A stretch of DNA of 42,997 bases from an uncultured Desulfobacterales bacterium (GTDB lineage Bacteria; Desulfobacterota; Desulfobacteria; Desulfobacterales; UBA11574), in contig CALLDL010000030.1 in the NCBI GenBank assembly GCA_937998305.1, positions 1 to 42,997 on the forward strand, in the 5' to 3' direction. The position numbers and the translations under genes are program-made. The notes below the pieces were generated by a model that was not told where the DNA came from, ran no database searches, and was given only the letters and a program-made list of their open reading frames with translations. Numbering within the stretch: position 1 is the stretch's first letter; every line of letters begins with the position of its first letter. This document shows, piece by piece, positions 19,687 through 42,176 of the stretch.

Positions 19687-19831
19687 ACAAGCCGCCTCAA
19701 AAATGCAGATTACGTTCAAAGACAAGGCGCGAGCCGATGAAAAAGCGGAGCATACATGGGAGTATGTGAGTATTTTGAAGAGGCTCGCAACGCCGTAATT
19801 GGGAGTTAGATGTATTTTTGAGATGGCTTGT
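19687..19831 (+). repeat. 145-bp terminal-inverted-repeat element, copy 1
   Basis: The ends are near-matching inverted repeats (ACAAGCCGCCTCAAAAAT and the complement of ACAAGCCATCTCAAAAAT). Inner complementary blocks (GGCGCGAGCC with GGCTCGCAACGCC; CATAC with GTATG) would fold the whole element into one long hairpin. It is about 94% identical to 40892-41035 by eye and more distantly related to 24241-24387. It ends 20 bases before the ATG of the DsrC-like gene, just before that gene's GGGAGG. It encodes no convincing protein. Confidence 0.85.
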
Positions 19832-24240: not shown

Positions 24241-24387
24241 ATTAGAACCTATCTCAAAAAAATCTAAGTGCCCATGGCGGTGTTGCGAAACGGTTCAAAA
24301 TGCTCACATACTACGTGTATGCTCCGCTTTTTTACCGTTTCGCGCCTTGCCCTGAACCCTAATCTTTTTTTTGAGATAGGTTCTAAT
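24241..24387 (-). repeat. 147-bp terminal-inverted-repeat element, copy 3 (divergent)
   Basis: Perfect 22-bp terminal inverted repeats begin ATTAGAACCTATCTCAAAAA. Read on the minus strand, the interior shows the same order of words as copies 1 and 2 (AAGGCGCG, AAAAAGCGGAGCATACA, AGTATGTGAGCATTTTGAA, CGCAAC). It is therefore a diverged member in opposite orientation. It lies in a convergent intergenic space after the cooS remnant and may terminate transcription from both sides. Confidence 0.8.
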
Positions 24388-39262: not shown

Positions 39263-40489
39263 ATGAAGCCCAAATTTTTTATCAGATACACCTCAATTGT
39301 TCTTTTTTTTGTTTTCTTTTCCCTGATTATCGCAGGATGTGGCATCTTCAAAAAAAGACCGCCTGAAATAAAAAAAACTGCGCTGATAAGAATAGATTCA
39401 TCAGCCTATCCGGATTTTTTTGATGATATGGACTATGATAGTTTGGAGAACTGTATTCTTGGAAGTATCTCATATCTTAATCGGGTGCCGCCGACAAAAA
39501 CATACAGGTTTGGACAAGACGTTTTTAACGCGACCCACATGATAAGATCCCTTGAGTATTTTCTCCATTTTATCCAAACAAAACCAATAAAAGATGAGCT
39601 GATACGATACATTAAAAATAACTATCTGGTCTACACCACCATAGGCAGCGATACCCCGGGCCAGGTTTTTTTTACCGGATATTACGAACCTGTTTTAGAA
39701 GGAAGCCTAAAAAAAGACTCTGAATACTTGTTTCCAATTTATGCTCGGCCTGACGATTTGACGACGATTAACCTCTCTCTTTTTTCCCAGCAGTTTAAAG
39801 GGGAAACCATTGTCGGCAGATATATTAATCAAAGTGTTGTGCCCTACTATGACCGAAAAGAAATCGAATACGAAGGGCTTCTGAAAGGTAAGGTCCAAGA
39901 AATCGCCTGGCTTAAGGACCGCCTTGACCTTTTCTTTTTACAGATTCAAGGATCAGGAAAAATTTATCTTGATAACGGTGAAATCATTAATGTCCACTAC
40001 CATGGATCAAACGGCCAGCCTTACCGGAGCATCGGCAAGCTGCTTATTGACGAAGGCAAAATATCCCGTGAAGAGATATCTATGCAAAAAATTCGTGATT
40101 ATTTACGCCGTCACCCTGAAGAAGTCGAAACCGTTTTAAATTATAATCCAAGCTATGTGTTCTTCAAAGTCGAAAAAGAGGGTCCTTTCGGATCTTTAGA
40201 GGTAAAATTAACGCCAGGACGATCCATTGCTTTGGACAGTCGTTTATTTCCTTGGGCCGGTCTGGCTTTTATTGAAACCAAAAAGCCCTTGATTAATGGA
40301 GATGGGACGATTCCCAAATGGATGGCGTTTTCTCGATTTGTTCTGAATCAGGATACCGGTGGAGCCATTCGCGGTCCCGGCCGTGCTGACCTGTTCTGGG
40401 GAAACGGACCATACGCTGAGATCGCAGCCGGTCATATGCAGGAATTCGGCAAACTTTATTTTTTGATACTTAAACCGGACATCCTTTAA
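39263..40489 (+). CDS. mltA: Membrane-bound lytic murein transglycosylase A
   Basis: This 408-residue lipoprotein cleaves peptidoglycan glycan strands, leaving 1,6-anhydromuramic ends. Signal segment 8-25 ends in IIAGCG (Cys26), giving outer-membrane anchoring. The MltA domain includes FFTGYYEPVLEGS, PIYARPDDL and DLFFLQIQGSGKIYLDNG. The C-terminal 3D domain reads DTGGAIRGPGRADLFWGNG (from Asp364), carrying the catalytic Asp. It starts one base after the previous gene stops, with a poor ribosome-binding site, so it relies on coupling. It is followed by a 560-base repeat-rich gap. Confidence 0.94.
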   Translation: MKPKFFIRYTSIVLFFVFFSLIIAGCGIFKKRPPEIKKTALIRIDSSAYPDFFDDMDYDSLENCILGSISYLNRVPPTKTYRFGQDVFNATHMIRSLEYFLHFIQTKPIKDELIRYIKNNYLVYTTIGSDTPGQVFFTGYYEPVLEGSLKKDSEYLFPIYARPDDLTTINLSLFSQQFKGETIVGRYINQSVVPYYDRKEIEYEGLLKGKVQEIAWLKDRLDLFFLQIQGSGKIYLDNGEIINVHYHGSNGQPYRSIGKLLIDEGKISREEISMQKIRDYLRRHPEEVETVLNYNPSYVFFKVEKEGPFGSLEVKLTPGRSIALDSRLFPWAGLAFIETKKPLINGDGTIPKWMAFSRFVLNQDTGGAIRGPGRADLFWGNGPYAEIAAGHMQEFGKLYFLILKPDIL

Positions 40490-40540
40490 TGTGAATCAAG
40501 CCGTGATATTTTTTTCCTTTCCGTTTTGACCGTTTTAAGC

Positions 40541-40814
40541 AGGGTAAACGCATTTGACTTCGGTGCAGCATAGCGACGGCGTGTTTCTCTTTCCAACCGA
40601 CTGACTGTTTGAAGGGCTTTAGCACGCGTTAGACCGAGCCGAACGAAATGATGACTTAAAAAATCAATAGGATAATTTAGCGAAAAATTATTCTAAACAG
40701 CTCAGGCGCGGCTCGGACTTACGGGTGCTTAAGCACAAGTTTCAGTCGGTTGGAAAGAGATATACGCCGTTGCGGAGCTTTTTTTCTGTATTGGGATTCA
40801 AATGAGTTTACCCT
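40541..40814. repeat. 274-bp long imperfect palindrome
   Basis: The outer arms (40541-40557 and 40798-40814) match over 17 bp with one mismatch. A perfect 19-bp inner arm TCTCTTTCCAACCGACTGA (40586-40604) matches 40742-40760, and GACCGAGCCG further in faces CGGCTCGG. The element could fold into one cruciform or RNA hairpin of over 250 bases. No coding frame is supported. It lies between mltA and the 145-bp element copy 2. Confidence 0.85.
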
Positions 40815-40891
40815 GCCGTCTAAGGGTTATATGCTTGACTCTTTTGTATAAAAAATTTATGAGTATTTTTTTGCTTTTATCATTTCTTTCA

Positions 40892-41035
40892 ACAAGCCAT
40901 CTCAAAAATGCAGATTACGTTCAAGGACAAGGCGCGAGCCGATGAAAAAGCACAGCATACAGGGAGTATGTGAGCATTTTGAAGAGGCTCGCAACGCCGT
41001 AATTGGGCGTTAGATGTATTTTTGAGATGGCTTGT
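40892..41035 (+). repeat. 144-bp terminal-inverted-repeat element, copy 2
   Basis: Perfect 18-bp ends (ACAAGCCATCTCAAAAAT and its complement). It differs from copy 1 (19687-19831) at about nine positions, including one deleted base. It has the same orientation and the same position relative to a gene: it ends 18 bases before the tatB ATG, just before AAGGAG. A spurious N-terminal extension of TatB and a minus-strand frame both arise from translating it. Confidence 0.88.
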
Positions 41036-41053
41036 GCTGTTAAGGAGTCACTT

Positions 41054-41392
41054 ATGTTTGGCATTGGCATGCCTGAAATGTTGTTGATTTTGGCAATCGC
41101 ACTGATTGTTATCGGACCTAAAAAACTTCCGGACCTTGCAAAATCATTGGGACGTGCGTTTGCCGAGTTCAAACAGGCGACATCCGAATTAAAAGAATCT
41201 TTTGAAATTGATTCTGAATTAAAAGATATTAAAACAACCTTTAATGACATGAGCAGCGAAATTAAGGAAGCCATCGATGTAGATGTCGATACAAAACCCG
41301 AAGATCAAAATCTTTCTGATAATTCCGAAGAAAAACAACATGAAAATAACATCCAAGAAAAAAAGTCAGACGGTTCAATAAGTAATGGATGA
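41054..41392 (+). CDS. tatB: Sec-independent translocase TatA/TatB-family protein (TatB-like)
   Basis: This 112-residue protein has the single N-terminal helix and amphipathic helix of Tat hinge proteins: [20 protein letters not shown], then [20 protein letters not shown], followed by an acidic, poorly conserved tail. The GPKKLP hinge and long tail favour TatB over TatA, but a single TatA/B gene with tatC can serve both roles. The start at 41054 follows AAGGAG. The preceding leader contains the 144-bp palindrome, so expression may be controlled there. It overlaps tatC by eight bases. Confidence 0.88.
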
Positions 41393-42176
41393 TCAAGATA
41401 AAATCCCTTTTACCGCTCACCTTGAAGAACTCAGAAAACGTCTAATTATCTGTTTTGCCGCCGTCGGCATCGGTTTTGTCTTGTCATACGGTTTTAAGGA
41501 AAAACTGTTTCAAATCTTAACCCGCCCCTTGATCGGGGTCATGCAAACCGGCGACAAACTTATATTTACCGGCCTTCCTGAAGCTTTCTTTACTTACTTG
41601 AAGGTCGCATTTCTCTTTGGCATTATTCTGGCCGCTCCTGTCCTTTTTTATCAGTTCTGGATGTTTGTCGCACCGGGATTGTATGACAAGGAAAAACGTT
41701 TGATGCTCCCCATTGTTTTTCTATCCACCGTTTTCTTTGTCGGCGGTGCATTTTTCGGATATTTTATTGTATTTCCTTATGGCTTTAAGTTTTTTTTAGG
41801 ATTTGCCTCTGAAATTATACGTCCACTCCCATCCATGCGGGAATATTTAAGTTTTGCCTCAAAATTATTACTCGCCTTTGGTCTTGTTTTTGAACTTCCT
41901 TTGATTATTACATTTCTAGCCAAACTCGGTATGGTTTCCGTAAGTTTTTTAAAGAAAAACAGAAAATATGCGCTACTTTTGTTTTTTGTCGGGGCAGCAA
42001 TTTTAACGCCTCCGGATGTTGTAACACAGATTATGATGGCGCTGCCTCTGATGGTGCTTTATGAAATCAGCATTGTCGGCGCGAGAATTTTCGGAAAAAA
42101 GAAACCGGCAGAAGACGATAATAATGAGGTATTTAATAGAGAAAAGAGCAAAGAGGATAAGGGAAACCACGAATAA
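41385..42176 (+). CDS. tatC: Sec-independent protein translocase TatC
   Basis: This 263-residue polytopic protein recognises twin-arginine signals. Diagnostic sites are [13 protein letters not shown] near the N-terminus, [21 protein letters not shown] between helices 2 and 3, [16 protein letters not shown] and [13 protein letters not shown] with six predicted helices. An acidic cytoplasmic tail ends the protein. It overlaps tatB by eight bases. Folded molybdo- or Fe-S enzymes, such as those using the cofactor from the nearby moa/mob genes, would be typical cargo. Confidence 0.97.

Follow-up and report, generated by a model that had tools for sequence, protein, structure and literature searches.

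The window, which is the whole stretch of 42,997 nucleotides analysed here, carries a long palindrome in the spacer between mltA and a tatA/B-type gene that is followed by tatC (Table 1). As read from the sequence, its 17-bp outer arms (40541-40557 and 40798-40814) pair with a single mismatch and its inner arms (40586-40604 and 40742-40760) pair perfectly over 19 bp, both as described in the original prediction. The length of 274 bp given there was short by one base on each side: the termini, CAGGG...CCCTG, are positions 40540 and 40815, and the element spans 276 bp with terminal inverted repeats of 18 bp. A check of its open reading frames found none of transposase size inside the element.

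Table 1 Features of the mltA-tat locus, with positions counted from the first base of the window.
Feature	Position	Strand	Evidence or remark
mltA, upstream neighbour	39263..40489	+	PF03562 and PF06725 (MltA and 3D domains)
Left target-site duplication CCGTTTTAAG, decayed	40530..40539	+	7/10 identical to right copy
ISAs1-type MITE, near-complete hairpin, 276 bp	40540..40815	.	multicopy, termini, 10-bp duplications, fold
Terminal inverted repeat, left (A) end, CAGGGTAAACGCATTTGA	40540..40557	+	compared with ISAs1 ends
Terminal inverted repeat, right (B) end, CAGGGTAAACTCATTTGA	40798..40815	-	
Right target-site duplication CCGTCTAAGG, decayed	40816..40825	+	
-35 box TTGACT of the tat promoter	40835..40840	+	19 bp separate its first base from the right end of the element
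Likely -10 box TATGAG, 17-bp spacer	40858..40863	+	read from sequence; family-wide -10 signal at the same offset
tatA/B-type gene, downstream neighbour	41054..41392	+	PF02416
tatC, after the tatA/B-type gene	41385..42176	+	PF00902

Copies, ends and target duplications of the element family

The search of the window genome that had been proposed as a check returned five places in the draft that cover at least 241 of the 274 bp, the four other copies being 82-88% identical to the one in the window. Relatives were found in 18 of 60 genomes, the window genome included, and were concentrated in the same taxonomic family (17/24 genomes, versus 1/36 from other families of the order); the census of copies from this search is a lower bound, counted among the matches listed. 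Copies less than 80 bp from a contig end, unpaired ends and duplicates by flank were dropped, as were end pairs whose mismatches summed over both ends exceeded 6. The aligned copies have common ends (CAGGGYAAACGCATTTGA), varying flanks and 10-bp direct repeats at the flanks: the flanking 10 positions match at 7 or more in 89 of 126 distinct copies, and exact flanking repeats peak only at 10 bp (23/97 copies). The palindrome is thereby one copy of a dispersed, short, multicopy transposable element that has terminal inverted repeats, a target duplication of fixed length and no transposase gene, and the earlier view of it as inserted DNA was right. A scan of named genomes for one end sequence located it, among the matches listed, mostly in uncultured Desulfobacterales and Deltaproteobacteria MAGs, Eth-SRB2, S5133MH16 and BM005 among them. 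Viral contigs gave two exact matches to one end, and a second end within 3 mismatches was absent.

Most of the 98 paired copies (64) measure 274-279 bp. Another 25 are only 67-210 bp long yet retain both ends, which fits the expectation that so long an inverted repeat is unstable, and several of the short copies (L049, L082, L111 and L173) are each flanked by a perfect 10-bp duplication. At three shared sites a long copy in one genome corresponds to a short copy in another (L014/L066, L068/L119 and L072/L126), a pattern to be expected if the middle of the hairpin had been lost in place; separate insertions could also have produced it. Five long forms of 401-446 bp hold additional internal DNA, which includes a nested repeat in four of them. 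By eye, no autonomous partner with MITE ends was seen among the end pairs of the 18 genomes, and the 1420-bp end pair L087 was rejected as a candidate because its extra DNA holds an ORF that does not look transposase-like.

The ends and duplications point to the ISAs1 family. A search of 29 ISAs1 loci from other genomes of the order, confined to ends beginning CAGG or TAGGG and including many loci that are partial genes or lie at contig ends, found perfect 10-bp duplications together with CAGGG- or TAGGG-type ends at six (L182, L183, L185, L186, L187 and L195). The closest end, CAGGGTAACCGCATTTGG of L185, is identical to the MITE end CAGGGTAAACGCATTTGA at 16 of 18 positions, and the transposase of L182 scores 449 bits against NF033564, with only weak matches to IS1380 and IS4 models. 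ISAs1-family insertion sequences (NF033564) likewise have CAGGG...CCCTG ends, with the likeness extending to CAGGGTAACCGCATTTG, and a 10-bp target duplication; the window element differs from them in being one long hairpin without a transposase gene. Since its ends are closely similar to those of ISAs1 elements of the same order, which make the same 10-bp duplications, we classify the palindrome as an ISAs1-type MITE, a non-autonomous transposon. The 18 draft genomes that carry the MITE yielded no intact ISAs1 transposase, the sole ISAs1 gene among them being partial and interrupted by a stop (in G021). The mobilising enzyme is for this reason deduced from the ends and the duplication length, and we infer from these sequence features that an ISAs1 transposase moved the window MITE. 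Ends and duplication length thus agree with ISAs1 while a cognate autonomous element is missing from the same genomes, an absence that speaks only weakly against the assignment, since the genomes are drafts; a MITE can also outlive its partner, and the partner may have been lost, missed in the drafts or foreign. The element itself is of an ordinary kind, an ISAs1-type MITE family of which we found no description. The Chunjie, Correia and ERIC MITEs, as presented in the available portion of a review of prokaryotic MITEs (PMC10969869), are likewise short, multicopy and mostly intergenic, with terminal inverted repeats and size variants.

Two other repeats were seen in the tat leaders of congeners. 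The second element that had been noted beside the palindrome is present at 40893-41034, belongs to a repeat family unrelated to the MITE with further copies in the window at 19689-19829 and 24246-24382, and has 34 matches in its own genome. Its ends are (C)AAGCC..GGCTT(G) or close variants, and several of 8 sites are flanked by TA left and right; these TA flanks suggest a MITE of Tc1/mariner or IS630 type. In the tat leader this repeat is common to the window genome and G003 and absent from G001 and G004. A third repeat (GAGACCTTTG..CAAAGGTCTC) lies in the tat leader of G004 (L296) and is nested within the long MITE copies L039, L040, L065 and L161; two different repeats occupy the tat leader in different congeners, which makes it a candidate for the insertion hot spot that had been proposed.

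Promoter spacing of the insertions

Flanks were read outward from each element end, and a -35 box was scored where at least 5 of 6 positions matched TTGACA. In 71 of 126 copies such a box begins exactly 19 bp away from an element end. This corresponds to 73 of 252 flanks at offset 19, compared to a mean of 1.8 flanks and a maximum of 5 over the other 73 offsets. In the discovery set the box was found in 54 of 97 copies, two of them on both sides (56/194 flanks, versus 0-5 elsewhere). Further copies outside the discovery set, drawn from the same group of genomes after removal of 30 flank duplicates, gave 17 of 29 with offset 19 and no more than 2 flanks at each other offset. When one representative was kept per shared insertion site, 62 of 111 sites retained the offset; offset 19 then had 64 flanks, and the other offsets averaged 1.6 and never exceeded 5. 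No 5/6 match at offset 19 was present in 55 of 126 copies, and we therefore speak of a preference, or of weak or decayed promoters at those sites. In the box-selected flanks, whose TTGACA is present by selection, a C precedes the box and a TATAAT-like box follows after 17 bp; the opposite flanks show neither. A downstream ORF lies on the promoter side in 51/62 cases versus 43/67 (p = 0.03), which is a weak test. Insertion in one orientation was rejected, as the end towards the promoter is B in 37 cases and A in 31, with one end unassigned.

At the window's own insertion the mltA-tat spacer was compared in 14 relatives, as had been recommended, and the MITE was found at the same place, with matching flanks, in G001 only. 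Among the 13 MITE-free relatives CTTGACT precedes tatA in nine (G003, G004, G009, G010, G011, G013, G014, G024 and G026), CTTGACA in G025 and G031, and neither motif in G008 and G012. Because the tat promoter is present in relatives that do not carry the MITE, the spacer sequences indicate that it most likely preceded the insertion. MltA of G003 is 90% identical to that of the window versus 85% for G001, and at the position of the MITE other DNA lies in G003 and none in G004. With the MITE at the same site in G001 but not in G003 or G004, the insertion in the tat leader does not appear to be recent, in agreement with its decayed target duplication (7/10) and in disagreement with the original prediction, which had considered a recent insertion.

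The same offset recurred in other ISAs1-type elements of the order. G286, a single-contig genome of 7.6 Mb from another family, carries ISAs1-type MITEs of 99-324 bp that commonly end in CAGGGCAATCGCATGTA (regions L335-L377), a separate large ISAs1-type set. From its 70 end matches, only part of them listed, 44 regions were fetched and two listed places left out; eight regions had no paired end, and of the 36 counted, which include a few doubtful pairs without duplication, 19 were at offset 19 (17/28 among those with a duplication of at least 7/10). Full-length ISAs1 copies in G267 (about 1.45 kb, some with inserts) were at offset 19 in 7 of 21 distinct elements, derived from 23 loci and including some that span inserts or are without duplication. 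Among eight ISAs1 elements picked from the 29 loci for their recognisable ends, four were at offset 19 (L182, L183, L186 and L188, the last without a visible duplication), and one of the misses is also in the G267 set. A fixed spacing to putative sigma70 promoters was accordingly seen in the discovery set, in the further copies and in other genomes. Gammaproteobacterial ISAs1 copies from Aeromonas, Photobacterium and Raoultella plasmids, with paired ends in 17 of 18 regions, had offset 19 in only 1/17, and one Photobacterium copy has TTGACA at offset 17. The Aeromonas media plasmid (L383-L390) and the Photobacterium plasmid (L391-L398) hold multicopy ISAs1, most with perfect 10-bp duplications, and such copies without promoter spacing form a natural comparison group. 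Other elements of the phylum, in G650 and G335, gave 0/5, in a small comparison in which a search of 395 genomes at E <= 1e-60 left only two with ISAs1 genes, and offset 19 was also absent from an ISAs1 element on a Nostoc plasmid. Promoter targeting by ISAs1 as a whole is not supported by these three groups, and the targeting belongs to part of the family. In a rough tree of 18 transposases, in which L195 is represented by a fragment and L313 probably by the wrong ORF, the offset-bearing elements are not restricted to one tight group.

Target recognition and alternative explanations

The fixed offset, its one-sidedness, the -10 signal, the duplications, the family of ends and the repetition in other genomes are established. 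Very probably, the palindrome belongs to a non-autonomous ISAs1-family MITE that is moved in trans and inserts 19 bp upstream of sigma70-type -35 boxes. The ISAs1 transposase would mobilise the MITE by cutting the target with a 10-bp stagger, and the transposase of this lineage would prefer targets that place the element end 19 bp upstream of the box, so that the duplicated 10 bp would span about -54 to -45. Either end of the element may point to the promoter. Through the duplication of the target, the promoter would keep its own sequence from about -54 on and the gene would be spared, only DNA further upstream being cut off; in the window, the target would be the tat promoter.

An alternative explanation is that the transposase directly reads a DNA motif (CTTGACA, situated about 9 bp beyond the duplicated target) and that the likeness to promoters is incidental. 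The strongest signal of all is indeed the TTGACA peak at offset 19, and we regard this explanation as a possible but rather unlikely one. About 17 bp beyond the motif, at some 42-47 bp from the element, the -10 signal is stronger than at other AT-rich TTGAC sites: a -10 match of at least 4/6 was found at 37 of 63 offset-19 TTGAC sites, which include G267 and G286 flanks, compared to 29% of 1088 AT-rich TTGAC sites elsewhere in the same DNA (Fisher's test, p = 3.6e-6). In the flanks of the 43 copies without a 5/6 -35 match, the average match to TATAAT is still highest at offset 42 (2.45, with 2.24 as the next value). Target motifs of DDE transposases are usually symmetric, whereas this motif is one-sided, with both sides occupied in 2/97 copies. 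Both the -10 signal and the one-sidedness speak for recognition of the whole promoter, most plausibly via bound RNA polymerase, and we infer that the transposase senses the promoter complex beyond the letters TTGACA alone.

A palindrome selected in place as a terminator, a small RNA or a regulator of tat is improbable, even if its location between mltA and the tat promoter and its very stable fold would suit such a role. Taken as RNA, 40539-40816 folds at -138.6 kcal/mol compared to -73.0 (sd 4.7) in dinucleotide shuffles (z = -13.9; 0/200 shuffles as good), and the opposite strand reaches z = -11.9. The element belongs to a multicopy family whose members are scattered over unrelated sites and flanked by target duplications, it occupies the mltA-tat site in only 1/14 relatives, and a small RNA of an Rfam family was dropped from consideration, as 40300-41200 has no Rfam match up to E = 1. 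The window MITE may have a secondary insulating effect.

A Mutator-type transposase (ISLre2/ISKra4), for which promoter targeting is already known, is very doubtful as the driver of the MITE. In the accessible text of Guerillot et al. 2014 (PMC3942029), TnGBS/ISLre2 (p-MULT 3) and some ISKra4-group (p-MULT 4) elements, likewise DDE elements, sit at a fixed distance upstream of sigmaA promoters (13-17 bp), and elements whose ends are near-symmetric are inserted in either orientation, like the MITE described here. These elements belong to the Mutator superfamily, and their published spacing differs from the 19 bp of the MITE; its ends and 10-bp duplication match ISAs1 elements, and full ISAs1 copies share the 19-bp offset. 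Random insertion followed by selection for copies that leave promoters intact is the least credible explanation: many copies do sit just upstream of promoters and leave these whole, yet such selection would tolerate many distances and the observed peak is confined to a single base (73 flanks, compared to no more than 5 at each other offset), a precision that disfavours it as the main cause.

The RNA polymerase footprint has its upstream edge near -55. Promoter-directed insertion by an ISAs1 transposase could on this basis mean that an ISAs1 clade, independently of the Mutator superfamily, evolved docking on promoter-bound RNA polymerase holoenzyme, with the element placed at the upstream edge of the footprint, a proposal that we hold to be evenly poised between right and wrong. 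Ty3 targets its insertions through TFIIIB, and docking by ISAs1 would be a bacterial analogue.

The finding here is the fixed 19-bp promoter spacing, which is common to the MITE and to full ISAs1 elements of the order. No report of promoter targeting by ISAs1 was found in the open-licence PMC literature, to which this statement applies; ISAs1 is absent from the main text of PMC3942029 as available, and the available portion of PMC10969869 names neither ISAs1 nor a fixed promoter distance, unlike what is seen for the MITE. If the targeting is true, bacterial DDE transposases would have evolved promoter-directed integration on two or more occasions, and one lineage of ISAs1, a family not known for it, would choose its targets very precisely. 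The insertions would then be natural, base-exact promoter markers in uncultured sulfate reducers. The elements would also lend themselves to studying whether promoter sensing by a transposase relies on DNA letters, polymerase or DNA shape, and a comparison of targeting with non-targeting ISAs1 should indicate the residues responsible.
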